Shown: one piece after another, positions 1 through 24,488 of the stretch
How positions within the stretch are numbered: position 1 is the stretch's first letter
How the letters are laid out: each line of letters begins with the position of its first letter
Program-made: the position numbers and the translations under genes
The notes under the pieces: generated by a model
The model's input: the letters and a program-made list of their open reading frames with translations, nothing else
Database searches by the model: none
What the model was told of the DNA's origin: nothing
Assembly (NCBI GenBank): GCA_017475035.1
Contig: JAFVGK010000097.1
Location: forward strand, 1 to 34,541
DNA from: Blautia sp.
GTDB lineage: Bacteria; Bacillota; Clostridia; Lachnospirales; Lachnospiraceae
Length of the DNA: 34,541 nucleotides
Direction: 5' to 3'

Positions 1-267
1 CTGACAGAAAAACAAATTCGAAGGGCAGTTGAAGCAAGGTTTAGGGATACCGAAGAATTCTCCGCAGAATCAAAATTCCGTAACGGTGTAGAAACATTAC
101 CTTCTGTATTACGAAGAAGATATAGGGTTGACGAAATGCCTGTCAGGGGATTAAAGCGAACAAAATTCCGGTTCGGGCTGTCTATTGGAGGTCTCAACTT
201 CATGAAATTACTGAAATTCATGAAGGGTAGGGGAAGTGCGCCCAAAATGCAGCCGTGTTACTCCTGA
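1..267 (+). CDS. C-terminal part of a DDE-type transposase (cut by window edge)
   Basis: Frame 1 is open from the first base to a TGA at 265-267 and gives 88 residues. The segment is rich in Arg and Lys and ends in the pattern PSVLRRRYRVDEMPVRGLKR followed by a hydrophobic LNFMKLLKFM tail. This resembles the C-terminus of IS1182/IS4-like DDE transposases, where an R-R-Y-x-V-x-x-x-x-V-R-G-L run precedes the last helix. The family call is from memory of that pattern, not from a search. The N-terminal part, including any catalytic DDE residues, lies outside the window, so it cannot be said whether the element is intact. No terminal inverted repeat is evident between 268 and 464. Confidence 0.5.
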   Translation: MTEKQIRRAVEARFRDTEEFSAESKFRNGVETLPSVLRRRYRVDEMPVRGLKRTKFRFGLSIGGLNFMKLLKFMKGRGSAPKMQPCYS

Positions 268-464: not shown

Positions 465-2666
465 ATGAAAAAAGCGTATATCGGATATGATCTTGGTGAC
501 GGAGAAACCATTACCGACCTTGCGATTCTGGACGAAGAAGCAGTAAGAACTTCTATTCAGATGCATTTTAGCGAAATGGAGATGCCTGACATCAACGAGG
601 CAGGCAAGGCAATTCCTACCGCGTTTGCACTGGATGCTGACGGGGAAGTCATCTTTGCCTCCAGCATACTGGAGGACCCTATGTTGTATCAGCGTATCTG
701 TATCAACTTCAAACGCTGTCCGTCAGATATGATTAAGAAAACAGATGAGAAGAGGACGAAGGAGCTCGTTGATATTTTTAATGCCGGCTGGCCTGCTCCG
801 GAGAGTGTTCCTGAGGTGGATTTTGACAGGCTCAGTGAGTTTGCGGATGCAGTCATCACCTTTACAGACGCCATATTCAATAATGGCAAGTATAACACAA
901 AGGTACATGACGCCATTATCTCTTGTGATTCAGTGATGTTCTGCGTGGGACATCCCACACGGTGGAACAAGCTGGATGTGGCGATTTATAAGTCCATACT
1001 GGAAAAAAGTGTACTGGGAAACGGCACATACGCCGGAAAGAAATCGGAGCTTATGTTAGACGCGGAATCGAGAGCTGCCTTTCTCTATGTGCGCGATAAG
1101 GCAGGCGTGACGATTCTTCCCAAGGGAAAAGCCGCATTGCTGCTCGATATGGGTTCCTCTACCATTGACATCACAGCCACAACGTCCGATTCCCGCAATC
1201 ACCTCTACAATAGTGGCAACAATTATCTGGGTGTGCGCAGCATCGATTTTCTGATCCGCGATTGGTATCTTGAAAAGCTGAAGGAGGATGCGGAGGACTG
1301 GAAGGTCTATGAGGAACTGATCAGCCTCAATCCCACCTTGGAAATGGCGTTGACACTGAGCTGCCGCAAAGCAAAGGAAACAATCTATTCGGTCGCTGCG
1401 AAGCGTGCCAGAATTAGCTTTGCCGATTTTGCATCGGTTCGGCTCTCACAGGATATCTTGAATGAGCTGGTTTACAATCGACCAATTTCGAAGGTTCTTA
1501 AAGAGACGATTAGTATTCCGGATGATGTGGCCGTTGCGCTGGGAGACAAAACCTGGATTACCCTCTTCCGGGAATTTCTGAATGATCAAAAAAAGAAGCT
1601 TGCAACGCAGAAAATCGATGTTGGATGTATCTTACTGACAGGAAGTGCATCCAAGATGCCTTTTGTCAAGGAGCTTGTGACCGAAGTGTTCAACGATCTC
1701 GGTAAGGACCGGGTACTCAGCGACATGAACCCTTCACGGTCCATCTCTATGGGGCTCGCGTTAGTTGGACCGAATGACTATAAAGCGAGGGAGTTCAGCC
1801 TTGCGGTTGAAGATATGATCCGGACCATTGTACCAAAATGCATCGATAGCTCCATCGGCGATCTGGCTGACAGCCTGAGCAAGGTTGTGGAGAACGTTGT
1901 ATTCTCTATCGTAATGAAGCGAATGAAGGAATGGAAAGAGGGTAAGTTTACCACCCTGAACAGCATGACACGTGCAATCGAAAACGATTGCTCCAAGGAT
2001 AAGCTGGACGCACTGCTCCGGAAAAATGAGGCGTATAACAAGGCAATCAGCGACTGGGTGATTAATAAGGTCGGTGCGGATATCGCTATCCAGATGAAAA
2101 GCCTTTGCCAACGCTTCGGTGTTACGAACATTACTGTGGATCAGCTTAATGTGTTCAAGATTCCTTCCGTAAAAATCGAGGGACTCCCCAATCCCACTGA
2201 GGGTATGCTGGACACAATCATGACTGTTGTATCCTTGATTGCGGGCGTGATTACTTACATTGTTCTTCCGACAGTGATTGGCGTAATAATTGGACTGATC
2301 GCCCTTATCTCCGGGGATATTGCACTGCTGTTGCTGGGTCTGCTGCTTGCTATACCTGAAGCTGGCCTGGTGCTGCTGATCGCTATCGCTGGCGTGGCTG
2401 TGGTAATAGCGATACGCAACGGTATGGAGGAAGCGAAGAAAGAGATTCTAAATAAAATCCAGCAATATGACTTGCCGGGTTGGTCCCGTAAACTGGTGTC
2501 TGACGAAAAAGTGGTTGAGAAGCTGAATAACTCCAACATACGCCTGAAGATCAAGGAAGCCATCATGAGCAAGGAGTCTAAAGATCAGATCATTTCTTCC
2601 GTGACCCAGAGTATTCGTGAACAGATTGAGCAGAGGATGGAAGTAATCAAGTATCTGATCAAATAA
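465..2666 (+). CDS. Actin/Hsp70-like ATPase with C-terminal membrane segment
   Basis: The 733-residue product carries the actin-fold ATPase signatures of the Hsp70/MreB/ParM superfamily. A phosphate-1-like motif near the N-terminus reads IGYDLGDGETIT, a phosphate-2-like motif reads LLLDMGSSTIDIT, and an adenosine-type motif reads ILLTGSASKMPF, followed by the Hsp70-like NPSRSISMGLA. Residues about 581-651 form a long, very hydrophobic stretch, probably two or three membrane segments. A charged tail of about 80 residues follows. Classical DnaK has a substrate-binding domain at that end and no membrane anchor, so this is not an ordinary chaperone. I chose the ATG at 465 because it places the nucleotide-binding motif at the extreme N-terminus, as is usual for the fold. 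An in-frame ATG at 390 would add 25 residues, and neither has a strong ribosome binding site. It is the first gene of a same-strand run ending at 10135. Its role there, assembly or gating of a membrane complex, is inference. Confidence 0.8.
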   Translation: MKKAYIGYDLGDGETITDLAILDEEAVRTSIQMHFSEMEMPDINEAGKAIPTAFALDADGEVIFASSILEDPMLYQRICINFKRCPSDMIKKTDEKRTKELVDIFNAGWPAPESVPEVDFDRLSEFADAVITFTDAIFNNGKYNTKVHDAIISCDSVMFCVGHPTRWNKLDVAIYKSILEKSVLGNGTYAGKKSELMLDAESRAAFLYVRDKAGVTILPKGKAALLLDMGSSTIDITATTSDSRNHLYNSGNNYLGVRSIDFLIRDWYLEKLKEDAEDWKVYEELISLNPTLEMALTLSCRKAKETIYSVAAKRARISFADFASVRLSQDILNELVYNRPISKVLKETISIPDDVAVALGDKTWITLFREFLNDQKKKLATQKIDVGCILLTGSASKMPFVKELVTEVFNDLGKDRVLSDMNPSRSISMGLALVGPNDYKAREFSLAVEDMIRTIVPKCIDSSIGDLADSLSKVVENVVFSIVMKRMKEWKEGKFTTLNSMTRAIENDCSKDKLDALLRKNEAYNKAISDWVINKVGADIAIQMKSLCQRFGVTNITVDQLNVFKIPSVKIEGLPNPTEGMLDTIMTVVSLIAGVITYIVLPTVIGVIIGLIALISGDIALLLLGLLLAIPEAGLVLLIAIAGVAVVIAIRNGMEEAKKEILNKIQQYDLPGWSRKLVSDEKVVEKLNNSNIRLKIKEAIMSKESKDQIISSVTQSIREQIEQRMEVIKYLIK

Positions 2667-2695
2667 CCTGCTTTTTTTCTAAGGAGGAAAAGTAC

Positions 2696-3700
2696 TTGAA
2701 GATTGAAATATGCTATGATCATATCCGGCCGTATACTTTTGTAATGATAGAAGGAAAGCCTGTGTCACAGTCTGACATTTATGGTTTCTTATACCCGGTC
2801 CGAGGATATGTGCTGCAGACCTGGCTCAATCCGTCCGGTTCCTGGCGAGGACTTAAGAACGAAATGATGGATCTGACACGTGAAGAGCCTTCCCGGCTCG
2901 TATTCTACGGCAGAGAGATTGACTATCTTGATTTAGAAAGAGCGCTTAACGGTCTTTTAAACTGTCAATGCCAGTTTGTTTACGCTGATTATACCGATGT
3001 CTCGGTAAAGTATCTTGCCGAGGCAGAAAAGTGCTTTGAGAATATAGTGAACACACCGGTAGTAATGGACCGGGATGATTCCGATACGACCAGAACGATG
3101 GCGGAGCTTTTCCCGGAGCAAAAAGCCAGAATCACTGGTCTGGTACGTCAACAGGAAAGGGAATGGCTGTCAACCATCAACACGCAATCTGATTTTTTCC
3201 GGTGCGCGAAAGACGATGGGTGCTGTCTGATCAACGGGGACCGAATCCTTTCATATGATAATTACGGTATGATTGATACCCTTATGACAGGGCTCAGGCG
3301 TTCTCCTGACATGATTGTGGTCGCTTTCGCCTCTGATGAAAAGAAGGCGGATTTCATCAACTTCAACACACAGTACAAAAACCATACTGTTACCTTCGTT
3401 CGATCTGATGAAGCGGCCTGGAAAGAAACACTCAGAGTAAAGTATGGAGTGCCCTGGGAATATCGGAAGAGGCTTGAACGGCTGAGGCGTTGTTATAATG
3501 TGCTGACGTCATGCTTTTTGACGGAAGAGGATGAGAATACCGGAGATGAAGTTTCCTCTATGTCCAGTCACATCAGAAACGCCATACGGAAGAAATATAA
3601 GAAGCGCTGGGCTGCGCACCAGAAAAATCAAATGGACCGCCTGTACAGTCTCCTTTATGGCATCGATTATATCAAGAAGGGAGTAGAACTAAATGCATGA
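2696..3700 (+). CDS. Unrecognised 334-residue protein, partner of the flanking ATPases
   Basis: The start is a TTG at 2696, supported by an AAGGAGG at 2681-2687. No recognised domain was found. The first half has alternating hydrophobic and charged stretches typical of a globular alpha/beta protein. The C-terminal 60 residues are strongly basic (for example RKKYKKRWAAHQK), which could contact nucleic acid or an acidic partner. There is no signal peptide or membrane segment, so it is probably cytoplasmic. The gene lies 29 bases after the Hsp70-like gene and overlaps the next gene by 8 bases (3693-3700), so co-translation with the HerA-like ATPase is likely. Function is unknown. The tight coupling suggests an adaptor or subunit for one of the two ATPases. 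Confidence 0.75.
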   Translation: MKIEICYDHIRPYTFVMIEGKPVSQSDIYGFLYPVRGYVLQTWLNPSGSWRGLKNEMMDLTREEPSRLVFYGREIDYLDLERALNGLLNCQCQFVYADYTDVSVKYLAEAEKCFENIVNTPVVMDRDDSDTTRTMAELFPEQKARITGLVRQQEREWLSTINTQSDFFRCAKDDGCCLINGDRILSYDNYGMIDTLMTGLRRSPDMIVVAFASDEKKADFINFNTQYKNHTVTFVRSDEAAWKETLRVKYGVPWEYRKRLERLRRCYNVLTSCFLTEEDENTGDEVSSMSSHIRNAIRKKYKKRWAAHQKNQMDRLYSLLYGIDYIKKGVELNA

Positions 3701-6700
3701 GGTGACTCTTCATCATGACACACTCTCGCTCGCGGAAAAGATTATCATGCAAACACAGTATAGTGAGCTTGCGTCTATAGAACCTGACCATCTCGCGGCT
3801 GAGACAGAGCAGATCATTCCGGGAAATGTGGCCTGCCTGTTTAAAATCACAGAATTCGTTTATAACCGTGAGGAGAATACGATGGCCAAGATTACCACAA
3901 TTCTCAATTCTCTGCATTCTTGCGGCGCGTCCTGTATGCTGCTGATCAAATGCGTGAACGGAAGCTGTGAGATTTATATCGGCGCGATTAACAAGCAGCG
4001 CTATGACAACGTTTTCTTCCTAAACACGATTCGCGATGTACTGCGCAATGGAATAGAAGGCAATATGCCAGGTACCGAGATTCAGGAGATTTACGCGCGC
4101 AACGATATTGAAGACACACTCAGGGAGTGTATTGACAACGGCTTTGACAGCCAGTGTATCTCTGCCGTTTCATGTATGTCCGGCGATTGGGATACGTCGA
4201 ATAACATTGCGCCAAATGGAATCGAGAGGCTGTTTGAGGCTATCGGCAACAAGAACTTCTCTATCGTCATCCTGGCAGATCCGGTACCCGGCGAAAAAAT
4301 CCAGATGATACGCCACGGATATGAAGAACTTGGCTCTCAGCTTTCCGCATTCGAGCAAAGCTCACTTGCCGTGCAATCCGGAAAAAGCACAACAGTTTCC
4401 AGTAATTACTCTGTCAGCGTGAGCCAGAGCATCGGTAAGAGTATCTCCTATACACAGAGCCACACAGAAGGAAGCGGATGGAGCAGACAGAAAGACAACC
4501 GTTCCGGCAAGCTGCTTACCATGGGCGCCTATCTGCTGACTAAAAATTACCTTGCGATGAATGCGGTTTCCACAATAACCAGCAATCCATCTGAGAGTGA
4601 AAGCAGCCACAACGATAACAGCACGGGCTTTCAGACTGGTACGACAGTTAACGACCAGACGGGTAGTCAGAAGGGCTTTGGGGAATCATTCGCCAGCAAT
4701 GAGGGAATGACGCTTACATATAATTCCAAAAACTACCATATTAAAGCTCTCCTGGAGCGAATCGATTGGTACCTGAAATGGCTCAACAGCCGCGAAAACT
4801 ATGGCATGTTCAATTGCTGCGCCTACATTGTTTCCAGCAGCGCAGGCACGAATATGATGGTAGCAAGTGAGTACCAGGCACTGCTGCAGGGCAAGCGTGA
4901 ACTGAATCAGCCCGCCACATATAATACCTGGACCCAGGAGAATCATGTGGATCAGGTAAGGAAATATCTGATGCATCTGTCCCATCCGGTTTTCGAGATT
5001 AGCGGCAGTACAGAACATAGTGCCTTTACGCCAGCTATGCTTTTAAGCAGCGTGGAGCTGTCCAGGCATCTGGCGTTTCCTCAGCATTCTGTGGTAGGAG
5101 TTTCGGTGAGCCAATATGAAGCGTTCGGCCGCGAGGTGGTGCGTAAGGCTGCTTTGCGATCCGGTAAGACCATTCGCATTGGCTGTGTGCACCATATGGG
5201 AAAGGCGATTGAACACAGGCCTGTGATATTGGATCTGCAGAGCCTGACGGCGCATACCTTTATCGCTGGTACCAATGGGTCGGGTAAATCCAACGCTGTC
5301 TTCAGGATTGTGGAAGAACTGATGAAATCCAAGGTTCCCTTTCTGGTGATTGAGCCGGCAAAGGGTGAATACAAGAATGTCTTCGGTAGAGAAAACAATG
5401 TATTCGTATACGGGACAAACGAAAAAAAATCGGAGCTGTTGCAGTTGAATCCATTCTGGTTTAACGACGATGTCAATGTACTGGAGCATATCGATAAACT
5501 TGTTGAGGTGTTTAATGCGAGCTGGTCCATGTATGCCGCAATGCCGGCAGTTCTTAAAGCTGCGATTGAAAACGCTTATAGAGCTTGCGGGTGGAATTTG
5601 GAGGACTCGTCTTATCCCGGAGAGATAAATGTATTTCCGACCTTTGAGGATGTGTTGTCTGAGTTTGATCAGAAAATGGACTCCACCGCGTTTTCACAGG
5701 AGGTCAAGGGAAATTACGTTGGCGCACTGTCAACTCGCATGGAGACAATGTGTAATGGCATTTATGGAAAAATCTTTGGCGGACGAAATTTGTCTGACGA
5801 AGAATTGTTTGACACAAATGTGATTATCGATCTCAGCAGGGTTGGATCTGGCGAAACCAAGTCCCTGATTATGGGCATGCTCGTGATACGGCTTCAGGAG
5901 TACAGGATGAAAAAGGAAGCCATGAATCTTTCGCTGCAGCATGTCACGATTCTGGAAGAAGCACATCATCTGCTCCGGCGGACCACCTCTGCGCAGAACG
6001 ACGAGGGAAGCAATATTCTCGGAAAGTCCGTGGAGATGATCTCCAATGCCATTGCTGAAATGCGCTCTTTTGGAGAGGGTTTTATCATCGTCGACCAGTC
6101 TCCCGGATTACTGGACATGTCTGTAATGCGCAACACGAATACGAAGATAGTCCTGCGTCTTCCGGAAAGCGGCGATCGTGAAATGGTGGGCAATACCATC
6201 GGGCTCAAGCCGGAGCAAATACATGAGATTTCGCGTTTAGGCACAGGCGTGGCGGTAATCTACCAGAAGGACTGGCGGGAGGCGGTGCTCTGCAAAGTTG
6301 ACAAAGCTGAACATGAGGAACAATTATATGGCTGGGATAGCAGAAACCGCCGGCGTGAAAGCAACTGCACGCTGATTCGTGCAATTCTCGGTGCCTGCGG
6401 AGTTGATATATTCCTCAAGAAAGAAGAAATGGATGATGCGTGTCAGAGTATCCGGTCCTGTGGCCTGTCCGGTAGGGAAAAGAGGCTGCTTTTAAAAATC
6501 CTGACGCAGAAAGGGCGGACCCCATTGACGGTTGCCAGCGGCATTATAAAGAAATTGTGCCTTGTGCGGATTCCAATGCCTCTGTCACCTGACGAGGAGG
6601 ATATCAAAGACTGGTATGCCCTGATCATGCAGAACGAGGAGCTGAAGATTTTCTATGACTCAGGCTGCATTCAGGGAATCCTGCTTTCGATTCTTGAAGA

Positions 6701-7223
6701 AGCTTGCAAGACCGATCCGCGTTATGCAGCTGGAATCATGGAGCTTTCTTCACTGATAAATCCGGGTGTAAACGAGGCATTGAAGAGCGCAAGAGGAATT
6801 GCTTTCCGACGAATTACGCCATTCTCCTTCAAACTGGAGTTACCTGAAAACACAGAGGAATTGAATCACGCAGTGGACCTTCTCTCAGAGTCTGACGCTG
6901 CCGACAGGGAGCTGGCGAATTTACTGAAAAAACATATTCAAAGCCATACGGTTCGGAAATGCAAAGTTATTTTCCCATATTCGACTATAGTCTGGCATAT
7001 TTTCAAAGGAGAAGCCTTGTGGAAAAACACGCAGTGGCTCATTGAGGAACAGAATGTGTCCGGTTGGGACAGCGCAATGCGAAAATGGGTTCGTTTTTTC
7101 ATGAATGCGGATAACTCGACGGAAAATTCCGTTTTGTCATTGCTGTTGCAGCACAAAGGGAAGAATCCGCAGGTTCAGCAGTTTTACCCTGACTGGCTAA
7201 AAAGCTTATATATGACAGTATAG
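3693..7223 (+). CDS. HerA/VirB4-like P-loop ATPase (DUF87-type)
   Basis: This 1176-residue protein has a Walker A at residues 526-533 (GTNGSGKS) and a Walker B at about 751-756 (VTILEE, then AHHLL). Between them lies LVIEPAKGEYKNVFG, typical of the HerA/VirB4/TraG group of ring-forming pumps that move DNA or protein. Downstream motifs (IIVDQSPGLLD, TKIVLRLPESGDREMVGNTI) fit the same group's sensor region. The first 500 residues are not recognised and contain a Ser/Thr-rich stretch at about residues 225-275. The last 300 residues after the ATPase core are also unassigned. There is no clear signal peptide or membrane helix. The start overlaps the preceding stop codon by 8 bases, with AGAAGGGAG just upstream. 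No NurA-like nuclease is encoded next to it, so a DNA-end-processing role is not supported. A transport or remodelling role linked to the peptide and protease genes is inference. Confidence 0.85.
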   Translation: MHEVTLHHDTLSLAEKIIMQTQYSELASIEPDHLAAETEQIIPGNVACLFKITEFVYNREENTMAKITTILNSLHSCGASCMLLIKCVNGSCEIYIGAINKQRYDNVFFLNTIRDVLRNGIEGNMPGTEIQEIYARNDIEDTLRECIDNGFDSQCISAVSCMSGDWDTSNNIAPNGIERLFEAIGNKNFSIVILADPVPGEKIQMIRHGYEELGSQLSAFEQSSLAVQSGKSTTVSSNYSVSVSQSIGKSISYTQSHTEGSGWSRQKDNRSGKLLTMGAYLLTKNYLAMNAVSTITSNPSESESSHNDNSTGFQTGTTVNDQTGSQKGFGESFASNEGMTLTYNSKNYHIKALLERIDWYLKWLNSRENYGMFNCCAYIVSSSAGTNMMVASEYQALLQGKRELNQPATYNTWTQENHVDQVRKYLMHLSHPVFEISGSTEHSAFTPAMLLSSVELSRHLAFPQHSVVGVSVSQYEAFGREVVRKAALRSGKTIRIGCVHHMGKAIEHRPVILDLQSLTAHTFIAGTNGSGKSNAVFRIVEELMKSKVPFLVIEPAKGEYKNVFGRENNVFVYGTNEKKSELLQLNPFWFNDDVNVLEHIDKLVEVFNASWSMYAAMPAVLKAAIENAYRACGWNLEDSSYPGEINVFPTFEDVLSEFDQKMDSTAFSQEVKGNYVGALSTRMETMCNGIYGKIFGGRNLSDEELFDTNVIIDLSRVGSGETKSLIMGMLVIRLQEYRMKKEAMNLSLQHVTILEEAHHLLRRTTSAQNDEGSNILGKSVEMISNAIAEMRSFGEGFIIVDQSPGLLDMSVMRNTNTKIVLRLPESGDREMVGNTIGLKPEQIHEISRLGTGVAVIYQKDWREAVLCKVDKAEHEEQLYGWDSRNRRRESNCTLIRAILGACGVDIFLKKEEMDDACQSIRSCGLSGREKRLLLKILTQKGRTPLTVASGIIKKLCLVRIPMPLSPDEEDIKDWYALIMQNEELKIFYDSGCIQGILLSILEEACKTDPRYAAGIMELSSLINPGVNEALKSARGIAFRRITPFSFKLELPENTEELNHAVDLLSESDAADRELANLLKKHIQSHTVRKCKVIFPYSTIVWHIFKGEALWKNTQWLIEEQNVSGWDSAMRKWVRFFMNADNSTENSVLSLLLQHKGKNPQVQQFYPDWLKSLYMTV

Positions 7224-7304
7224 CTACGGCTGCAAGTACCGCATTTCATAAGTCATGGTGCATTCCGCTATCATATTCACTGTTTGGGATTGGAGGGATC
7301 TGAT

Positions 7305-8015
7305 ATGAACCTGGAACAGAGGACCATCAATGAAGTTAAGCAGGACGATTTCAAAAAAGCCCTCTTCGATGAAACACAAGCCCTGGAACCGGAGAGAGTC
7401 CAAATCCCTGAGATTGGGGATGTTCTTGTCTGTGGCAATCTGTTTGATCTGGCAGACAGGCTGGACGACATACAAGGCGACAACATACTGAACGCCCAGG
7501 GAGACTGTGGCGTGGTGTCTGTAGTCAACATTGCCAGACTGTGCGGCATATCCTGTGACGAAAATGACGCCATTGTGAAGGCAGTACAATTACGTCTGTG
7601 TAATTATTCCACTGCCCTTGATTCTGCCGACAACGGAGGCACAAATGTATATCAGAGAAAGGCGTTGCTGGCGGAATATGGCATTTCATCCACTGTGTTT
7701 ATGGGTGATGAGCTTGCACCTGAGCAAATCGCCCGTCTGGTAGAGACTGGACATGCGGTTAATCTTGGAGTCAATGCCGGTTATGCATGGGGAAACGCAG
7801 ACTATATCAATGACGGCAGTTCAAATCACAGTATCATTGTGACCGGTTCCGCCCGTAATCCTGAGACACATGAACTTGTTGGATTGTTCGTCTGTGACAG
7901 CGGATACCCCGGGAAATCAAATGCTGTTTTTTTACCACTGGGAGTATTGGAAGATGCATACACGAACGCACCCGGTTCCAGTGCACTTGTGACAGACCGT
8001 CCGGTGAGTGTATAA
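7305..8015 (+). CDS. C39-like (papain-fold) cysteine peptidase
   Basis: The 236-residue product shows a papain-like triad in order: Cys68 in NAQGDCGVVSVVN, His175 in SSNHSIIVTG and Asp198 in VCDSGYPG. QGDCGVVS-type Cys motifs and a late NHSIIVTG His motif are typical of C39-like domains, which in peptide-export systems cut leader peptides after a Gly-Gly site. Here there is no fused ABC transporter or membrane segment, so this is a free-standing soluble enzyme. I use the ATG at 7305, which has GGAGGGA at 7292-7298; a TTG at 7284 would add 7 residues and lacks such a site. It lies 81 bases after the HerA-like gene. A role in processing the 96-residue peptide at 8593-8883 is inferred from position, and that peptide has no obvious Gly-Gly site. 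Confidence 0.75.
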   Translation: MNLEQRTINEVKQDDFKKALFDETQALEPERVQIPEIGDVLVCGNLFDLADRLDDIQGDNILNAQGDCGVVSVVNIARLCGISCDENDAIVKAVQLRLCNYSTALDSADNGGTNVYQRKALLAEYGISSTVFMGDELAPEQIARLVETGHAVNLGVNAGYAWGNADYINDGSSNHSIIVTGSARNPETHELVGLFVCDSGYPGKSNAVFLPLGVLEDAYTNAPGSSALVTDRPVSV

Positions 8016-8033
8016 TAAGGAGGGAATGATCTG

Positions 8034-8543
8034 ATGCTTTATTATGAGATTATTTCAGAGCTGAAGAAGAAGGCCGCATACTGCTTTGATGATGCTGTCT
8101 GCCTTTCATATGCAGTTCCAGAGATAGAAAATGGAATACGAGTCGACAAAGCATTTTTATACAGAAATACGCTGGATACGAGCAGAACTCGCCCGTTTGC
8201 CGTATTGGTCACAGCTGCTGATGACGGCAGGATTGTATTGCTCGCAGATTGTCACTACAGCGACTTTGTGGATCCCGGGAGGTTTCCATTTTCCAGGAAG
8301 CTGGATTATCGGATGCCGGAAAAGGAGAGCGTGGAGGATTTTCAGATGGAGCAGCATATGATCCGCAAGCTATATGAAGCGGTCCGTCTGTTTGCGTTTC
8401 AGAAGGGATTAGGGCTTGAGCAGAAGCAACTTCTGGAAAAATACCATTTCCTGTTTTCACACGCTGTACCGAAAGATCTCATTCCTTTTTATGAGGCGTT
8501 GAGTCCTCGCTTTGAAGCATGGATTCAGAGCGAGATATATTGA
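8034..8543 (+). CDS. Unrecognised 169-residue protein
   Basis: The ATG at 8034 follows AAGGAGGGA at 8017-8025, 18 bases after the peptidase stop, so it is clearly translated as part of the same operon. The protein is soluble, with no signal peptide or membrane segment. The middle contains a beta-rich part (FAVLVTAADDGRIVLLADC) and a helical C-terminal third. No family was recognised. A substrate-recognition or immunity-type partner for the neighbouring peptidase or radical SAM enzyme is possible from its place, but nothing in the sequence decides it. Confidence 0.7.
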   Translation: MLYYEIISELKKKAAYCFDDAVCLSYAVPEIENGIRVDKAFLYRNTLDTSRTRPFAVLVTAADDGRIVLLADCHYSDFVDPGRFPFSRKLDYRMPEKESVEDFQMEQHMIRKLYEAVRLFAFQKGLGLEQKQLLEKYHFLFSHAVPKDLIPFYEALSPRFEAWIQSEIY

Positions 8544-8592
8544 AAAAAATGAGATTCCATGAAATATTTTTATAGAAAGGTCAGGGGAATTC

Positions 8593-8883
8593 ATGAAAGA
8601 GGTTATCATGCCAATTGAAGAGATGAAAGAAACTCAAGAGATCAGAGAAGGATCAGATGCGGAGGCGCTGGAGACTGAGGCGGCGGTTCAGGGAACTGGA
8701 TTCAGGGAGGAGACAACAAATGATATTCCCAAATCCATCGCAGATATACTCCAACTGAGCGAATCTGAAAAGCAGGTATATATGAACATCGGCAATACAG
8801 TGGAGCACATGCCTGTTGAGGGACGAATTATTGGTTACAAGAAAGGCTCTTGTAACGAGCGCCTGATTCCTATTCATAATTGA
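8593..8883 (+). CDS. 96-residue candidate precursor peptide for the radical SAM enzyme
   Basis: A small, acidic protein whose first 45 residues are Glu-rich and probably disordered (KETQEIREGSDAEALETEAA). Its C-terminal 30 residues change character to VEGRIIGYKKGSCNERLIPI, with the only Cys of the protein. An acidic leader followed by a Gly/Cys-containing tail, directly upstream of a radical SAM/SPASM gene, is the usual layout of a ribosomally made, post-translationally modified peptide. The start at 8593 has AGGGGA upstream; a second in-frame ATG at 8608 is also possible. Against the call, there is no Gly-Gly cleavage site, no repeated core and only one Cys, so it may instead be a small regulatory or scaffold protein. 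It lies 49 bases after the previous gene and 118 bases before the radical SAM gene. Confidence 0.6.
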   Translation: MKEVIMPIEEMKETQEIREGSDAEALETEAAVQGTGFREETTNDIPKSIADILQLSESEKQVYMNIGNTVEHMPVEGRIIGYKKGSCNERLIPIHN

Positions 8884-8950
8884 TGAAAAGATTCGGGGAT
8901 ATGGGTTTATGCGCCTGAACCGATAACCTGCAGTGGACTGACAATGAAGT

Positions 8951-8972
8951 TTATCAGTAGATTATCAGTAGA
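8951..8972 (+). repeat. 11-base tandem direct repeat before the radical SAM gene
   Basis: TTATCAGTAGA occurs twice in a row (8951-8961 and 8962-8972) in the 118-base gap between the peptide gene and the radical SAM gene. It could be a protein-binding site or chance; no promoter is clear around it. Confidence 0.6.
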
Positions 8973-9001
8973 GTCAACAGATAAAAACAGGGGTGAAAAC
9001 A

Positions 9002-10135
9002 ATGGGACGAACAATGCTGGTTACGCTGCTTATCACACATAGATGCAATTTACGGTGCAGGTACTGTTATGTCCGTTCCTATCATGATGTCGTAATGTCA
9101 ATGGAAACCGCCTGTAAATGCATTACGGACGCATTTTCTGACGCCATTGGCAAATTCGACCGGCTTGAATTTGCGTTTCTGGGAGGGGAGCCGTTCTGCG
9201 TCTTCGATCGTCTTCGCGAAATATGCGAATGGACCTGGAGTCAAAGGTGGCCTCTGCCATATCTTATTTCGGCTTCCACAAATGGAACACTCTGTACAAG
9301 TAAGGTTTGCCGATGGCTGACGGAACATCACGATCGATTCTATCTCTCGTTGAGTTTTGATGGACTGATTGGTGCTCAGGACCGAAATCGTTGCAAAAGC
9401 TCCGATCAGATCGATCTGGATTTCTTTCATCAACACTGGCCTTCGATACCGGTAAAAATGACAATCACAGAAGAAAATGTCGATTGCCTGTATCAGAATA
9501 TCCATATGCTTCATGCCAGAGGGATACAGGTTAATGATACCTTTGCGGATGGTGTTCCGGCCTGGAAGGATTCTTCGCTGCACATACTGGATCAACAGCT
9601 GCAAATGTTGTGTAATGATCAGCTGGAGCATCCACAACCTCATCCAAGCGATTTATTATCAATTGACTTAACGCGAATACTGATGACAGAAACGAGATCT
9701 CTGTTTTCCTGTGAAGCTGGGATCAGCCGTTTTACATATGATTGGGATGGAAAAAAATATGGCTGTCATCTTCTTTCACCGCTGGCTCTCAGTAATCAAC
9801 AGCTCACAGAATTGTCTGCTTCCATGAAAGCTCCGAGGCCTGTTTTCTCTCCCTGCCATAGCTGTGATCTGGATGCTCTTTGTCCCTCTTGCGAAGGCAA
9901 TAACATTCGTCTAAATGGCAATCCCTGGCTGCGCGAAGAAAAAAACTGCAAATTGTTTCGTCATCAACTGTACTATGCCTGTGTTTTTCAAATGAAAAGG
10001 ATATTGAAAAAAGATGAATGGGGAGAGGATTACCGACGCATCTTTGGCTCTATACAGAAAATTATTCAGACAAGACCGATGAGAGAAGTAGTCTGCCGAA
10101 TATACAGGAATTCCGGAATTGAAAGTGGTTCGTAG
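9002..10135 (+). CDS. Radical SAM/SPASM peptide-modifying enzyme
   Basis: The 377-residue product has the radical SAM CX3CX2C cluster at Cys15, Cys19 and Cys22 (HRCNLRCRYC), which binds the [4Fe-4S] cluster that cleaves S-adenosylmethionine. A GGEP motif (FLGGEPFC) follows at the expected distance. The C-terminal third carries many Cys residues (SCEAG, YGCHL, SPCHSCDLDALCPSCEG, NCKLF, YYACV), matching a SPASM-type domain that holds auxiliary iron-sulfur clusters. Enzymes of this class install crosslinks or other changes on peptides. I chose the ATG at 9002 because AGGGG at 8989-8993 is then correctly spaced; an upstream GTG at 8993 would overlap that site. Its likely substrate is the 96-residue peptide encoded just upstream. 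It is the last gene of the region 1 run. Confidence 0.85.
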   Translation: MGRTMLVTLLITHRCNLRCRYCYVRSYHDVVMSMETACKCITDAFSDAIGKFDRLEFAFLGGEPFCVFDRLREICEWTWSQRWPLPYLISASTNGTLCTSKVCRWLTEHHDRFYLSLSFDGLIGAQDRNRCKSSDQIDLDFFHQHWPSIPVKMTITEENVDCLYQNIHMLHARGIQVNDTFADGVPAWKDSSLHILDQQLQMLCNDQLEHPQPHPSDLLSIDLTRILMTETRSLFSCEAGISRFTYDWDGKKYGCHLLSPLALSNQQLTELSASMKAPRPVFSPCHSCDLDALCPSCEGNNIRLNGNPWLREEKNCKLFRHQLYYACVFQMKRILKKDEWGEDYRRIFGSIQKIIQTRPMREVVCRIYRNSGIESGS

Positions 10136-17101: not shown

Positions 17102-17875
17102 ATGATATTTCAGGTAGGAATGTCTCAGAATATCGGAAAGCGAAGCGTACAGCAGGATTCGATAGGGAGATCGGATAAAAGCTCTCTGAAAGAACGCGGA
17201 CTGCTTCTTGTTCTGTCAGACGGGATCAGCAGTATGGAGGCAGGAGAACGGTTCAGTGGACTGGCTGTGGAAGAAATGATGAAGGCATACCAGGCAGAAT
17301 CCCCTGATAAAGATCTTTTAGATCGCTTGCTTTCTTTTTATAAAAGAGCCAGGCAGGCAGCTCTGCACCTGAGACTGGAGGAGGGAATCGAAGGCGGCGC
17401 TACTGTCACGGCTGTGCTGGCTCATCATGGGAAATGTGCTTTTGTTTCCTCCGGAGACAGCCGCCTGTACCTGTTGAGGGGAAAAGGACTGATCCAGTTG
17501 AACCGGGAACAGCAGATGGGACACGTTCTGGATGAGCGGGCAGCGTTAGGCCTTACCCTGCGGGAAGAAGCAGAACGCAGTGTTTATCGGAAAGCGCTCA
17601 GCAATCACCTGGCCATGGAAGAGGAACTGCCGTTAGATTACTGTGAACCATTTCAGCTGCTCGGCGGAGACCGGATGATTCTGATAAGCGATGGGGTTTT
17701 CTCTACGTTAAGCGAAGCGGAGCTGGAGGAAATTTTGGCGGATCCTGCCCGGACGGCAAGTGAGGCAGCAGAAGATGTGATAGAGGCCGTAATGAAACAT
17801 GATCAGCCGCGCCAGGATAATTGCAGCGTGATTGTTCTTATAGTAAAAGAAGCACAAAAAAGGAGTGCGTTATAA
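17102..17875 (+). CDS. PP2C-type Ser/Thr protein phosphatase (soluble)
   Basis: The 257-residue protein is a single PP2C domain, a metal-dependent phosphatase that removes phosphate from Ser and Thr. Visible motifs in order are NIGKRSVQQDSIG with Asp19, LVLSDGISSMEAGE with Asp40-Gly41, FVSSGDSRLYLLRG, LISDGVFSTLSEAE and QDNCSVIVL with the last metal-binding Asp. The usual DGxGG at the second motif is DGISS here, so the metal loop is slightly unusual, but all expected acidic residues are present. There is no signal peptide, so it acts in the cytoplasm, probably against the kinases and FHA targets encoded downstream. The ATG at 17102 follows GAGGAAA at 17091-17097. Confidence 0.88.
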   Translation: MIFQVGMSQNIGKRSVQQDSIGRSDKSSLKERGLLLVLSDGISSMEAGERFSGLAVEEMMKAYQAESPDKDLLDRLLSFYKRARQAALHLRLEEGIEGGATVTAVLAHHGKCAFVSSGDSRLYLLRGKGLIQLNREQQMGHVLDERAALGLTLREEAERSVYRKALSNHLAMEEELPLDYCEPFQLLGGDRMILISDGVFSTLSEAELEEILADPARTASEAAEDVIEAVMKHDQPRQDNCSVIVLIVKEAQKRSAL

Positions 17876-17935
17876 TCTGACAGGAAAGATATAGTGTAAT
17901 AAGTTGGAAAGATTCGAAAAGGAAGGAGGAGAGGA

Positions 17936-18931
17936 ATGAAGGAAGAAGCAGGCAGGGCGGTCAGTTCAGGATCCTGGTGGATCTTTCTTGCGGTCGGGCT
18001 GGTTATTGCGGCGGTTTTGATTATCCTGGTACTGATCTCGGCATCGAGAAAGAAGAAAAGCAGAGGTTCCGGAACCATGTCAGGCCGGAAATTGAAGGAA
18101 GGGGTAAAGACGGAAGCTTACGAAGATGTAAAGGGTCAAACCGTTTCCCCCGAGACAGAGGCTTCGGATGACAAAGGGGAGTATGTGAGATCCTGTTTCC
18201 AGGTAGGAGCCGCGCAGACAGTTGGCTCCAGATCAAATCAGGAGGACAGCTATTGCATTTCCCCATGGAAGGATGCAGAAATCGTCTCCAGACAGGGGCT
18301 TCTTGCCGCCGTGGCTGACGGCGTGGGAGGGATGAGTAACGGGGAGGTGGCGAGTACCACGCTGATGCTGACCTTCAGTGAGACCTTTGGAAGCCTTTCG
18401 CCCGAATTGACTGCACAGCAGAAGCTGCTGGAGCTTACGTCAAAAGGTCAGCAGGCGGTTCTGCGCCTGAACAGGGAGGGAAGTCATTGCGGAACCACCT
18501 TGGTGGCTTTGCTGATTGAGAATGGCTATCTGTCCACACTATCTGTCGGTGACAGCCGGATTTGCCTTTATCGTGGGGGCGGATTGCTGCAGCTTAACCG
18601 GGAACATGTCCTGGGGAGGGAAAGCGATGAATATCAGGCACTTCATTTCACCGAAGAAGAAGCAGACGAGCGTAAGCGAAGACTGATCACCTCCTATATC
18701 GGGAAGGATGGGCTGAAACTGATCGACCGGACCTTAAATCCGATCCGTCTGATCTCCGGAGACCGCATTTTGCTCATGTCGGACGGTGTCTTCGGCACCT
18801 TGACGGATGACGAGATGATCGCTTTGCTGAACAAAGAGCCACAGGAAGCAGCACAGGCCATCATCCAGGCAGTAGAGGATCACCGGAAACCTTACCAGGA
18901 TAACGCTACGGTCGTGATAGTGGGGTTATGA
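17936..18931 (+). CDS. Membrane-anchored PP2C-type phosphatase
   Basis: The 331-residue protein has one membrane segment at residues 14-36 followed by a Lys/Arg-rich stop (RKKKSR), a linker of about 50 residues, and a complete PP2C domain from about residue 85. The motifs are VGSRSNQEDSYCIS, AAVADGVGGMSNGE (a canonical DGVGG), TLSVGDSRICLYRGGG, LMSDGVFGTL and YQDNATVVIV. The topology places the catalytic domain inside the cell. A strong GGAAGGAGGAGAGGA precedes the ATG. It is a divergent paralogue of the upstream phosphatase, sharing DSR-x-LYRG-type motifs and LIQLNRE/LLQLNRE. A membrane-tied phosphatase fits a role in reversing phosphorylation of the membrane kinases encoded in the same cluster. 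Confidence 0.9.
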   Translation: MKEEAGRAVSSGSWWIFLAVGLVIAAVLIILVLISASRKKKSRGSGTMSGRKLKEGVKTEAYEDVKGQTVSPETEASDDKGEYVRSCFQVGAAQTVGSRSNQEDSYCISPWKDAEIVSRQGLLAAVADGVGGMSNGEVASTTLMLTFSETFGSLSPELTAQQKLLELTSKGQQAVLRLNREGSHCGTTLVALLIENGYLSTLSVGDSRICLYRGGGLLQLNREHVLGRESDEYQALHFTEEEADERKRRLITSYIGKDGLKLIDRTLNPIRLISGDRILLMSDGVFGTLTDDEMIALLNKEPQEAAQAIIQAVEDHRKPYQDNATVVIVGL

Positions 18932-18959
18932 CTGCAGAATTATGAATGAAACAAAATTG

Positions 18960-19004
18960 CCATCCGAAGATATTGAGTCAACGGACAGAATTTTGTTTTG
19001 GGAG
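18960..19004 (+). repeat. Leader element shared with the C69 dipeptidase gene, copy 2
   Basis: Matches 13835-13879 at 34 of 45 positions. It lies between the PP2C gene and the trypsin-FHA gene and ends at the latter's ribosome binding region. Confidence 0.5.
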
Positions 19005-19020
19005 AAGGAGGAAAGAGTCA

Positions 19021-20229
19021 ATGAAAAAAAGAATATGCAGTGTGGTTTTGGCATTGATTTTGGCGGTATTTTATGTGCTGCCTGCATTCGCGAACCAGGA
19101 TGCGATCCGGGACAGCGTCGTCAGGTTGTATGCCATTGGTCATTTTAAAAGTGAAATCGGTTCTGCGTTTGCGGTGGGTAAATCCGGCAAATCCGTGCGG
19201 TATTTTGTGACGAACAAACATTGTTTATATTGTGAAACCGATGTTAAGGGCGAACGTGAACCGGCGATACGTCTTTCGATCATTATAGGAAACAGCACAG
19301 CGGATATCCCGTGTAATGTTGTTGCGATAAGCGATCGCTGTGACCTGGCGATTGTCGATATTGAAGGATATACGGACGAGAGAAAACCAGCAATCCTGCG
19401 GACTTTTGATCCGGATGTGCTGGGGGAACATACGGAAGAGGTATGGACCTATGGCTACCCGGGGGTCGTGATTGATCTAAAAGGTGGAACCGGTGATTTT
19501 CTTCTATCGGACAGCAAGACGCTGAATGTAACAAGGGGAACAACCGGAATGGTTTCTCCAAACGGTGCTACGGCAGGCGAACAGATTTTTCATGACGCGA
19601 ATATCAGCGGAGGGAACTCCGGCGGACCGCTGGTAGATAAAAACGGATATATTCTGGGCGTAAATACGTGGGGGATTCATGATTCTTATGAAAATAATAA
19701 TGCGGCGCTATTTGGAGCGATTTCCTCAAATGAAGTGGCCCGCTTTCTGGATGAGGAGAAAATACCCTATACGACGGTTAAGGACATCAGAAACCGACGG
19801 ATTCTTATGATTGCGATGATCATCGCTGTTTTGGCAGCGTTTGCTGCTATGATACTGCTGGTGCTGAATCGTAAGCCTCAGAAAGGTAAAAAAATATCCG
19901 GTTCCGGTACCGGCAAGGGAGGCAGCCGTACTTTGGTATGTGACGCCGGTGAATTGGCCGGGAAACAGTATCCGTTATCCAGAAAAATGATGATCGGGCG
20001 GAGCTCTCAATCCTGTGACATAGTCTTTTCAGGCAGCGCCAAGGGCGTCAGCGCAAAACACTGTACGATTACGTTTGAAAATGGAACGGTTATGGTGACG
20101 GATGAAAAATCCACCTATGGCACGTGGATTGACGAAGTGAAACTGGAACCGGGCGTACCGAAAGTCATGCATCGGGGTCAGAAGCTGTACATCGGATCAA
20201 AACAGCAGGCGTTCAGCCTTCATTCATAA
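19021..20229 (+). CDS. Trypsin-like (S1C) protease - membrane segment - FHA fusion
   Basis: The 402-residue product starts with a signal peptide (MKKRICSVVLALILAVFYVL). An extracytoplasmic serine protease domain of the DegP/HtrA type follows, with an intact triad: His67 in VTNKHC, Asp108 in DRCDLAIVD and Ser200 in SGGNSGGPLVD. A membrane helix at residues 261-283 comes next, then a cytoplasmic FHA domain at about 304-402 with MIGRSSQ, SAKHCTI and YGTWID. FHA domains bind phosphothreonine, so the protease is placed under control of, or reports to, the phospho-signalling proteins around it. There is no PDZ domain, unlike DegP. The ATG at 19021 fits the signal peptide and has AAGGAGG at about 19005-19011; the frame is open 25 codons further upstream. 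It is followed after 21 bases by the next FHA gene. Confidence 0.9.
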   Translation: MKKRICSVVLALILAVFYVLPAFANQDAIRDSVVRLYAIGHFKSEIGSAFAVGKSGKSVRYFVTNKHCLYCETDVKGEREPAIRLSIIIGNSTADIPCNVVAISDRCDLAIVDIEGYTDERKPAILRTFDPDVLGEHTEEVWTYGYPGVVIDLKGGTGDFLLSDSKTLNVTRGTTGMVSPNGATAGEQIFHDANISGGNSGGPLVDKNGYILGVNTWGIHDSYENNNAALFGAISSNEVARFLDEEKIPYTTVKDIRNRRILMIAMIIAVLAAFAAMILLVLNRKPQKGKKISGSGTGKGGSRTLVCDAGELAGKQYPLSRKMMIGRSSQSCDIVFSGSAKGVSAKHCTITFENGTVMVTDEKSTYGTWIDEVKLEPGVPKVMHRGQKLYIGSKQQAFSLHS

Positions 20230-20250
20230 CAGGAAAGGGGAATAAACACT

Positions 20251-20829
20251 ATGGCAGGCAAGGGTCGTGTGAACTATACAAATGATTATGGATTTACAAT
20301 GCCTCCGTCGGAGCAGTCCGTTCCACATACGGACGCCGCTAAAGCAGGGAAACAGGCTCCCGCGGATACCGGTATCCCGACGGAACCGGATTATGCGGAT
20401 GACGCCGGCAATGTGACGTTGGTAGATGAAAATCCTTCGCATAAGACCAGAATGATCATGGGCTGGCTGGTCGGTATCACCGGCGAATGCAGGGGAGTTG
20501 ATTTCCGCCTGCACAGCGGGGAAAACAAAGTCGGACGGGGCGAGGACATGGACATTCGCCTGACGGACGGCCATATTGACCGCTCAGCCGTGATCAGCAT
20601 CTATTTTGATCCGATGAATAACAGATATTATGTGAGCCATGGCGGCGGCAGCTGTCTTCCCTATGTAAACCGTGAGCCGGTGATTGGTACCCGTGCCCTT
20701 GAGGCGTTTGACCGTATCCAGCTGGCATGGGAAAAGGATGGCAGCGCCGAGATTATCTGCGAGCTCTTATTTGTACCTCTTTGCGGCGAGAAATTCAGCT
20801 GGTCCCAGACAGAGAAAGGAATCGAATGA
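20251..20829 (+). CDS. Small FHA-domain protein with degenerate binding site
   Basis: The 192-residue soluble protein has an acidic, probably flexible first 65 residues, then an FHA-like fold with NKVGRGEDMDIRLTDGHIDR and YYVSHGGGSCLPYVNREPV. The Gly-Arg of the first FHA loop is kept, but the usual S-x-x-H (here DRSAVIS) and the NGT turn are altered. Phosphothreonine binding may therefore be weak or absent. It overlaps the following kinase gene by four bases (ATGA at 20826-20829), so the two are translationally coupled, and the protein is probably an adaptor or substrate of that kinase. AAAGGGG at 20234-20240 is the likely ribosome binding site. Confidence 0.8.
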   Translation: MAGKGRVNYTNDYGFTMPPSEQSVPHTDAAKAGKQAPADTGIPTEPDYADDAGNVTLVDENPSHKTRMIMGWLVGITGECRGVDFRLHSGENKVGRGEDMDIRLTDGHIDRSAVISIYFDPMNNRYYVSHGGGSCLPYVNREPVIGTRALEAFDRIQLAWEKDGSAEIICELLFVPLCGEKFSWSQTEKGIE

Positions 20830-22544
20830 AAGACAATCCCTTTGCGCTGAAGCCTGGCGCGAGACTGGATGACGGAAAGATCGTAATCGAAAAGGTTTTG
20901 GGAAGCGGCGGCTTTGGAACGACCTATCAGGCTCGCGACGAGATGTACGGTGAAGTCGCGCTCAAGGAATTTCTGCCGGTTTCCATGATAACAGGACGCA
21001 CAGGGCTTGAACCGGACGTGAATGAGGATAAACGGCAGCTTTACGATAAGTGCCTGAGGAGCTTTTGCCGGGAAGCCCGCCTTCTTGCTTCGCTGCATCA
21101 TGAAAATATCGTAAGCGTAAAGTTTTCGCTGGAGGAAAACAAGACAGCGTACTATGGGATGGAATTGATGAAGGGACGGGATCTCGCTGATTATCTGAGA
21201 GAGCGCGCCCCGATTGATGCCTATGAAGCTTATGATCTATTCCTGCCGGTGATGGATGCGCTGATTTATCTTCATCGGAACAAGGCTTTGCATCGTGATA
21301 TCAGCCCGGATAATATTTTTCTCCGTGAAACGAAAGAGGGGATTTCCCCCTGTTTGATAGATTTTGGGGCGGCTTTCTCGGCACAGCGGGATTTTACTCA
21401 TACATTTCCAAGAGTAAAGAAAAACGGTTATTCTCCCATGGAACAGTCCTGGGATTCAAAATATCAGGGAACCTGGTCCGACGTCTATGCCATGACAGCG
21501 ACAGTGTATTATGCTGTGACCGGTACTGTGCCCAGACCCGCTGCAGAGAGGGGAACAGTGGAAAATGACGCGCTGATAAAACCGCGCTCCCTTAACCCTT
21601 CCTTATCAAAGGCAATGGAAAGCTTCCTGTTAAAGGGACTTGCCCTTTTGCCGCAGGATCGTATTCGGGGGATGGCAGAGTTTAAGAAAGAATGGGAAAA
21701 AGCGCTTGATTTTCCCGGGGTCAGGAATCCGTCAATAGAGTCTGAAGCAGACCAGGCGCGGAAAGAAATAGATAATTTCCCGGAAGCCGTATTTTCGGAA
21801 TCCTCCATCGTCAGTGACCTGGAAAACTCAGAAACCTACTCAGAAAAACCGAATTCATCCTTCGCTCATTTCCTGGCATTGCTTCTGGATTGGGGCATCT
21901 GCTGGATCCTGCCGACAGTAATCATCTCCATATTGTCGGGACCGGGCGTGGGGGTGGCGATCGGTACGGCTTTTTCGTTTCTGATGAACGGACTGATCCT
22001 GATGGCGAGAGGGTGTACATTAGGAGAGTTTTTGGCAGGCTGTATGCTGCCGGAGCTTGACAGAAAAAAAGCGCTTGTTTATCTGATCCTTCGCCATATT
22101 ATACCCTTAGCTCTTGCGGATGAAATCAACAGATCCATAAAAGGAGAAGGCTTTCTGGATTCCCTGGTTATGTCGAGGCCGGACAGCTCCTATGTCTCAA
22201 GAAGCGGGACGGCTTCAGAATTTACAGGCATTAGGGAAACCCTGCCCAGACTCCGGTGTGTAAAGGGTACCATGGCCGGACTGGAGCTTATTTTGGATGG
22301 GATGAAAACGGTTGGACGAGGACAGGATATGACATTGAAATATCCGGATGAAGAAACTACCGTCAGCAGACATCATTGTGCCATACGTCGGATGAAGGAT
22401 GGATGGCATGTCGTGGATATGGATTCGCGCAACGGAACCTTTGTGAATGACAAAAGACTGCAGGCAGGGGTGCTTTCTTCCAGGCTGAAAGCAGGCGACC
22501 GACTGAAAGTCGGGAATGATGAGTATATATTTATGGAAGAATAG
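20826..22544 (+). CDS. Ser/Thr protein kinase with RDD-like membrane segments and C-terminal FHA
   Basis: The 572-residue product has a Hanks-type kinase domain in residues 17-300: glycine loop GSGGFGTTY at 26-34, Lys47 in VALKEF, HRDISPDN with Asp158, and DFG with Asp179. Residues about 345-440 are hydrophobic and resemble an RDD-type membrane region (LALLLDWGICWILP and GCTLGEFLAGCMLPEL). The C-terminal 90 residues form a canonical FHA domain (VGRGQDM, VSRHHCAI, SRNGTFVNDKRL). Kinase and FHA would both face the cytoplasm. The start at 20826 overlaps the upstream FHA stop codon and places the kinase motif at the usual distance. Members of this type phosphorylate themselves and neighbouring FHA proteins; targets here are inferred from the operon. 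Confidence 0.92.
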   Translation: MKDNPFALKPGARLDDGKIVIEKVLGSGGFGTTYQARDEMYGEVALKEFLPVSMITGRTGLEPDVNEDKRQLYDKCLRSFCREARLLASLHHENIVSVKFSLEENKTAYYGMELMKGRDLADYLRERAPIDAYEAYDLFLPVMDALIYLHRNKALHRDISPDNIFLRETKEGISPCLIDFGAAFSAQRDFTHTFPRVKKNGYSPMEQSWDSKYQGTWSDVYAMTATVYYAVTGTVPRPAAERGTVENDALIKPRSLNPSLSKAMESFLLKGLALLPQDRIRGMAEFKKEWEKALDFPGVRNPSIESEADQARKEIDNFPEAVFSESSIVSDLENSETYSEKPNSSFAHFLALLLDWGICWILPTVIISILSGPGVGVAIGTAFSFLMNGLILMARGCTLGEFLAGCMLPELDRKKALVYLILRHIIPLALADEINRSIKGEGFLDSLVMSRPDSSYVSRSGTASEFTGIRETLPRLRCVKGTMAGLELILDGMKTVGRGQDMTLKYPDEETTVSRHHCAIRRMKDGWHVVDMDSRNGTFVNDKRLQAGVLSSRLKAGDRLKVGNDEYIFMEE

Positions 22545-22698
22545 AAAACCGGACGAAAAACAAAGCAGACATTGCCGGTTTATTACTGATTTTCGGACGC
22601 TGCTTTCGGGCAGAGAGTCCGGAAATTGTGCAGACTGATATGGGATTCGATCCTGAAGGCAGGATTGTTTTTCGATGATTGGAAAGGGGCAGACAGGT

Positions 22699-24315: not shown

Positions 24316-24383
24316 GAAAAAAGGCGGAGCATGCGGTAAATGCCATGGAAAAATGGTTTGGGCTGCCTGCGCCATAATCCGGT

Positions 24384-24425
24384 AAAAAAGCCTGTTCCGA
24401 TCTGTAAAGCGGGATAGGCTTTTTT
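24384..24425 (+). terminator. Terminator after the VWA-FHA gene
   Basis: AAAAAAGCCT at 24384-24393 pairs with AGGCTTTTTT ending at 24425, and the stem extends inward with wobble pairs (GTTCCG against CGGGAT). The T run makes it a good intrinsic terminator. It separates the operon 17102-24315 from the zinc-ribbon kinase gene, which would then need its own promoter or readthrough. Confidence 0.7.
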
Positions 24426-24488
24426 AGATGTTTTTTGGATGGGTTCTTACATCACAAAGCTGAACAAAGGATGGAATAGGAGAAAAAG

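Follow-up and report, generated by a model that had tools for sequence, protein, structure and literature searches.

We describe a locus of seven genes, P1 to P7 (positions 465-10135, + strand), in a Blautia sp. draft genome of 5.08 Mb; the window analysed is the whole of contig C67, 34,541 bases long. The reading we hold most probable, although we hold it tentatively, is that this locus represents the Hsp70 type of a widespread class of HerA/VirB4-class motor loci, which handle, and most likely move across a membrane, the protein encoded behind the motor, with P4 as the effector and P5 as its protector. Delivery, toxicity and immunity are what we infer for the P4–P5 pair. All seven open reading frames (ORFs) are open and follow one another on the + strand, with P2 and P3 overlapping, just as the initial annotation described; the gaps from P1 to P7 are 29, −8, 81, 18, 49 and 109 nt (P4 counted from ATG 7305 and P7 from GTG 8993).

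P3 (3693..7223, 1176 residues) is a HerA/VirB4-class motor, as annotated: Pfam, NCBIfam and structure matches all point to a RecA-like pumping-ATPase core, which carries Walker A. It consists of an N-terminal domain (residues ~1-221), a Ser/Thr/Gly/Asn-rich insertion (~222-346), the motor proper (~480-880) and a helical C-terminal extension; the insertion varies in length and is modelled as strands at low confidence. Residues 218-837 match the NCBIfam family NF033849, ‘serine-rich protein’ (E 1.2e-20), whose name gives no function, at 72.6 bits, far below the cut-off of 650, and five of five further motors scanned match the same family. The HerA and mad8 models of PADLOC also match P3, and the motors of SIR2-HerA and HerA-DUF4297 rank high in a Foldseek search with it. 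A profile of 19 N-terminal domains returned nothing convincing among solved chains (best E 0.27), and an EccE3-like N-terminal domain, considered as a candidate for this region, was not confirmed by sequence.

At E ≤ 1e-60, 46 of the 392 genomes searched within the order have the motor; a draw of 398 genomes from the whole phylum gave 8. Both counts include the window's own genome. When a profile of 14 motors was scanned against named genomes, at least 571 relatives were confirmed (tblastn E ≤ 1e-3), among which there will be members of other HerA families; the 80 best, with their flanks, make up the set studied, so the locus counts given below describe the nearest relatives. These 80 loci extend to Spirochaetota, Fusobacteriota, Synergistota, Bacteroidota, Pseudomonadota and Methanosarcina. 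A motor tree (n = 54), made by a quick search and rooted on three motors of a second Hsp70–HerA family that sit on long branches, places the window and six loci, L050-L055, in one clade (Shimodaira–Hasegawa-like approximate likelihood ratio test, 100). Its sister is a group of 44, with a support of 83.

L050-L055 are the six best motor matches among the 80 loci and come from distant, metagenome-assembled Bacillota, whose record names suggest rabbit, rumen and soil, among others. The order P1-P2-P3-P4 is kept in five of the 80 loci (L050, L051, L052, L053 and L055), and P3-P4 in L054. P5 stands behind P4 in the window and in all six relatives, three of them recovered by search and three by reading frames masked by overlapping antisense frames; gene calling was mechanical, longest frames first, and may have misread some other genes in the first (+1) or second (+2) place behind the motor. 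P7 relatives were found in two of the six (L051 and L055) and P6-like frames in three (L051, L054 and L055), and neither was seen in the stretches read of L050, L052 and L053, though P4 and P5 are present there. Because P5 occurs in all six relatives and P6 and P7 in some, P1-P5 is the core and P6-P7 an add-on, and a fixed seven-gene unit was rejected. The initial annotation had suggested checking whether all seven genes stay together in distant species, and named as one refuting outcome that the first three and the last four were regularly apart. Both ATPases, P2, P4 and P5 do stay together, P6 and P7 do not; P4-P5 remain with P1-P3, and it is P6-P7 that separate. The link between the genes emerged through clustering and the nearer relatives; when the window proteins were first compared with 20 other HerA neighbourhoods, only the motor matched at E ≤ 0.01. 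A gene of ~246 residues precedes P1 in L050-L053, and none was seen upstream of P1 in the window. It looked GrpE-like by eye, yet no GrpE appears among the listed Pfam matches and this identification was dropped; a search of the window's genome did not find the gene but had no positive control and shows little.

P1 (465..2666, 733 residues) is the type-defining component of the Hsp70 clade. Its match to the Pfam family HSP70 lies just under the gathering score (19.5 against 20.6 bits, E 3.1e-4), and hydrophobic stretches lie at residues 580-633 and 635-655. We take P1 to be a probable Hsp70/actin-fold ATPase, whose hydrophobic region may be the membrane tail of the initial annotation. Its relatives in L050-L053 and L055 are 41-49% identical, and a profile of the family finds only three DnaK sequences, weakly (E 0.0023-0.0031). 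In the sister loci the corresponding place is generally taken by dynamin-like GTPases. Among the upstream proteins (GTPases, the c7 cluster and P1-type proteins), 49 of the 121 listed were scanned, 44 GTPases and 5 P1 relatives; Dynamin_N was found in 44 of the 49 and HSP70 in 3. A few sister loci have Sel1-repeat proteins upstream of the motor instead of GTPases. L064, L072, L073, L076, L085 and similar loci form a separate motor clade, in which an upstream GTPase of ~720 residues (c7) occurs with proteins of ~280-420 residues (c6).

The two types are connected by P2 (2696..3700, 334 residues, TTG start), for which we coin the name ‘YNPY’ domain protein. In a profile–profile comparison, six P2 proteins matched the N-termini of 18 dynamin-like GTPases with a probability of 98.4 and an E of 5.2e-15 (0.0034 with an earlier, smaller profile), and phmmer matched P2 to seven GTPases at E 3.2e-4 to 6.2e-7. 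Judged by these comparisons, P2 is a free-standing form of the domain that is fused to the GTPases of the sister loci. Since P2 is homologous to the GTPase N-terminal domain, the Hsp70 and GTPase types share the motor and an adaptor domain and differ in the nucleoside triphosphatase.

What the motors may handle is best seen in the GTPase-type sister loci. A same-strand gene directly behind the motor (+1) is present in 74 of the 80 loci, and a second such gene (+2) in 65. The 74 +1 genes, six of which are P4 relatives, match the nuclease families WHH (33), Colicin-DNase (33, presumably the same proteins, as the tally gives no overlap), Endonuclea_NS_2 (9), LHH (9) and GH-E (2); further matches are to the Gln_amidase papain-fold toxin (1), a putative metallopeptidase family (1) and Peptidase_C39_2 (3, all P4 relatives). 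Peptidase-like +1 genes (Gln_amidase, DUF6782) exist in sister loci as well. The 65 +2 genes match SUKH-1 (28), DUF6985 (12), YezG-like immunity proteins (2) and others. None of these toxin or immunity families was among the 25 of 171 families listed for control genes from block +4 to +7 (73 of 110 scanned). Another 31 +1 genes, collected later and in part from beside more distant motors, gave WHH (6), LHH (5), Endonuclea_NS_2 (2), HNH (2) and Gln_amidase (1), after L176, L180, L184, L190 and L205 had been dropped as repeats of earlier loci.

The +1 gene also changes faster than the apparatus. Counting proteins as alike at blastp E ≤ 1e-3 and leaving out +1 proteins below 130 residues, GTPase-type pairs with 60-80% motor identity had like +1 proteins in 26 of 54 cases and like +2 proteins in 17 of 51, whereas their upstream GTPases were alike in 44 of 44. 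At 45-60% motor identity the counts were 135 of 473, 73 of 401 and 320 of 355; the pairs share loci and are thus not independent. At 80% or above, +1 was alike in 10 of 11 pairs, the exception being the Brachyspira loci L092 and L111, whose motors are 91% identical. The hallmark of polymorphic toxins, a variable toxin with constant handling genes, is therefore seen in the sister group. A hydrophobic N-terminal stretch was found in 0 of 74 +1 proteins.

P4 and P5 occupy the toxin and immunity slots of these sister loci and are therefore read as cargo and protector, roles we assign by position. P4 (7305..8015) is a C39-like papain-fold protein in the slot behind the motor. Its frame opens at TTG 7284, and its start is probably ATG 7305, with GGAGGG upstream as the ribosome-binding site; P1 has no clear site at 465. 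Gln64, Cys75, His182 and Asp205 (numbered from TTG 7284) are invariant in seven aligned P4 proteins, and by analogy we take them to be a papain-type site. P2, P4, P5 and P6 have no Pfam match at E ≤ 1. However, Peptidase_C39_2 matches five of six P4 relatives at E ≤ 0.1, that of L052 above the gathering score, so ‘C39-like’ holds weakly for the family by its sequence; the proposed free-standing papain-fold protease is upheld to this extent, through the relatives rather than P4 itself. Comparison of P4 with solved structures gave nothing of note, and PADLOC models at E ≤ 0.1 gave no match. Across the 392 genomes of the order, a P4 search found only the window's genome and one other (G667), there too beside Hsp70 and HerA. 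P5 (8034..8543, 169 residues) begins 18 nt past P4.

C39-like proteins recur in the second Hsp70–HerA family, whose motors are ~890-906 residues long and have DnaK-like neighbours (L048 7224-16501, L216 1882-9446, and L218). The family is rare, with 2 of 392 genomes at E ≤ 1e-100. Its C39-like proteins stand behind the motor, directly in L048 and after one frame in L216 (profile match 92%, E 6.1e-7), and in L213, another such set, a P4 relative is located before the Hsp70 and motor genes. The Hsp70–HerA neighbourhoods of L049 and L218 showed no C39-like gene by eye or by profile.

A short N-terminal motif links some of the cargo proteins. For this count, 63 of the 74 +1 genes (eight toxin-like clusters) and 8 genes from L033-L042 were dereplicated from 71 to 40. 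The motif [LAYV][DN]xP[LI] occurs in the first 100 residues of 13 of these 40 toxins, which belong to several folds (shuffle mean 0.50, maximum 5, 2000 shuffles). The last 100 residues of the same 40 toxins contain it in 2 cases; it was found in none of 65 immunity-slot proteins and in 16 of 936 other genes. In a later set of 21 toxins, taken from the 31 new genes after loci above L200 and one duplicate were left out, it occurs in 4, a count that none of 2000 shuffles attained, and 3 of 201 other frames have it; some of the four toxins resemble earlier ones. In the Hsp70 clade a different motif of the ‘E-x-ALE’ type, a pattern made post hoc, lies ~20-65 residues in, in 4 of 7 P4 and 4 of 4 P6 proteins and in 0 of 1124 other genes. 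The four P4 proteins are those of the loci with a P6-like frame. L033 10579-12120 holds two unlike toxin-like genes, one papain-fold and one WHH-like by eye, with similar leaders (MLDFNIEETLSKMES... and MFNFNVAEVFSNMET...).

P6 (8593..8883) is a peptide of 96 residues and would be an optional second cargo. Its C-terminus, GYKKGSC..RLIPI, is common to L055, and its N-terminal motif resembles that of P4. A 67-residue P6-like frame lies at L054 14858-15061, where no P7 relative was found in the locus, and is perhaps a decayed or minimal form. The optional P7 (9002..10135), whose frame opens at GTG 8993 and which perhaps starts at ATG 9002, is confirmed as a radical SAM/SPASM enzyme. Its nearest model is PapB (NF047865, E 2.5e-29), but with 102.6 bits against a cut-off of 340 it does not qualify as a PapB-type ranthipeptide maturase; PADLOC viperin and CARF models match it as well. 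The absence of an ABC transporter among the seven genes, remarked on in the initial annotation, is borne out by the Pfam and NCBIfam scans: no ABC transporter family, with a C39 domain or otherwise, scores above cut-off in the seven proteins, and the ABC ATPase model TupC matches P3 weakly (E 0.019).

In the reading that we favour, P1 and P2 would act together as a membrane switch, powered by nucleotide, through which cargo is loaded onto the P3 ring, and the short N-terminal leader would be the recognition signal on the cargo. P4 would act as a papain-fold effector against which P5 protects the producer, and P7, where present, would modify the C-terminus of P6, a second cargo with a similar leader. 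Several observations weigh against this. The polymorphic-toxin hallmark is missing from the window's own Hsp70 clade, where neither P4 nor P5 is swapped: all 15 pairs formed by the six relatives have like P4 proteins, and in 14 of these pairs motor identity is 45-60%. C39-like proteins also stand behind second-family motors; in this company P4 has the look of a built-in component of Hsp70-type loci, and may be a core part more than a toxin. The P4 relative of L213 has Ser aligned with Cys and Gln with His, and this lost site may mean action by binding, not cutting. The predicted structure of P5 (predicted local distance difference test 83.7) gave no convincing fold match and no known immunity fold, nor does P5 match the small proteins encoded after the C39-like genes in L048 and L216. 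Pfam recognised no delivery parts (repeats, WXG100 proteins) among the seven proteins. In the later +1 set, at least 15 of 31 genes match no toxin family. The leader motif was picked after inspection and is missing from most toxins, and a looser form is weaker (14 of 40 against a shuffle mean of 2.92; in the later set its 4 of 21 was equalled or exceeded by 56 of 2000 shuffles). A more specific form of the idea, which we think rather unlikely, is a further toxin-delivery machine in which the Ser/Thr-rich strand insertion of the HerA/VirB4-class ring would be the membrane pore, loaded by dynamin-like GTPases or the Hsp70-like membrane ATPase through the shared adaptor P2 and reading short leaders; the cargo of the Hsp70 branch would be of two kinds with a similar leader, a papain-fold protein and a peptide modified by a radical SAM enzyme.

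The strongest rival, possible though we doubt it, is intracellular defence or abortive infection, in which the HerA ring would sense or handle invading DNA and hold an effector (P4, or the nucleases of the sister clade), with P5 as antitoxin, as in SIR2-HerA and HerA-DUF4297. The Foldseek ranking of those motors and the PADLOC HerA matches of P3 speak for this, as does the lack of a hydrophobic N-terminus on the cargo. Of the other upstream genes, 73 are listed and 41 were scanned; 10 of the 41 match the WYL domain, which is linked to defence regulators. Conflict systems with GTPases and HSP70 are described as having mostly intracellular effectors (PMC7159879). Yet separate SUKH-type genes stand behind many of the nucleases and the toxins are swapped fast; separate immunity genes and fast toxin swapping are typical of toxins met from outside. 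P4, moreover, lacks a PADLOC match, and the leader motif is common to some toxins. Much less probable is peptide maturation, in which P6 would be modified by P7 and trimmed by P4 before a complex of P1, P2 and P3 exported it, close to the model of the initial annotation. The nearness of P7 to PapB, the P6-like frames beside the P7 relatives of L051 and L055, the weak C39-like match of the P4 relatives and the similar N-terminal motif in P4 and P6 all speak for it, but P4 and P5 persist in L050, L052 and L053, and P4 occupies the slot of the sister-clade toxins. A machine built around a modified, cut and moved peptide does not agree with P6-like ORFs in three and P7 in two of six relatives; as P6 and P7 lie outside the core, the machine is not built around P6, and P4, present in three loci where neither is seen, is likelier to be a cargo or core partner than a peptide trimmer. 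We give very little weight to a conjugation or mobilisation ATPase set with passenger genes: the Pfam matches of the seven proteins include no conjugation family other than FtsK, TrwB and TraG, which fall on the motor itself; and what stays constant beside the motor is a GTPase or Hsp70, while toxins and immunity proteins vary.

The locus had been proposed as an undescribed system, and our search, confined to open-access literature (subscription papers and preprints lay outside it), showed no description of this gene set and no recognisable description of a HerA motor with dynamin or Hsp70 and toxin–immunity pairs. Like the polymorphic toxin systems (PMC3482391), the GTPase-type sister loci have constant handling genes, a variable toxin and an adjoining immunity gene, and toxin and immunity families are common to both. 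A motor with a dynamin-like GTPase or Hsp70 is, however, not among the delivery systems described in the available part of that account; the cargo here is short, and the Hsp70 type does not swap it. P3, with its VirB4-like motor and its Ser/Thr/Gly/Asn-rich insertion, resembles the EccE3-HerA ATPase of extended Type III-A CoCoNuT operons (PMC11090510), but no McrBC-type (CnuB/CnuC) family occurs among the seven proteins, and the motor here stands with a GTPase or Hsp70 and a toxin–immunity or P4-P5 pair. SIR2-HerA (Nezha) and HerA-DUF4297 share a HerA-class motor with an adjoining effector, as the structure matches indicate, but the seven proteins have no SIR2 or DUF4297 match (Pfam E ≤ 1, PADLOC E ≤ 0.1), and the window adds a separate immunity-like gene, P1 and P2. 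The GAP1-N2 GTPase-centred conflict systems with HSP70 and GrpE (PMC7159879) are alike in arrangement, with a GTPase or HSP70 as the constant NTP-driven part and variable effectors, but have no HerA-class motor in the part of the description available.

If the favoured reading is true, genomes of gut Clostridia, Paenibacillus, Brachyspira, Leptotrichia and further groups would encode a conflict machine with an apparatus that we have not found described. It would provide a home for many nuclease–immunity pairs without a signal peptide, and a likely cargo for a motor type that has been mentioned just briefly, in CoCoNuT operons. Hsp70-like and dynamin-like switches would gain a shared role. Whether and how signal-less toxins leave the cell becomes directly testable.

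A scan counted 20 promoter-like sites (shuffle mean 16.2) and 17 terminator-like sites (9.1), which do not inform the transcript question. Directly upstream of the locus, window 1-267 is an open frame resembling a transposase end by eye. A second gene group at 17102-34448, also read by eye, apparently comprises two PP2C phosphatases, FHA-domain proteins, two kinases, a VWA-like protein and four Sel1-repeat proteins; Sel1-repeat proteins apparently also adjoin the motors of L104 and L119.

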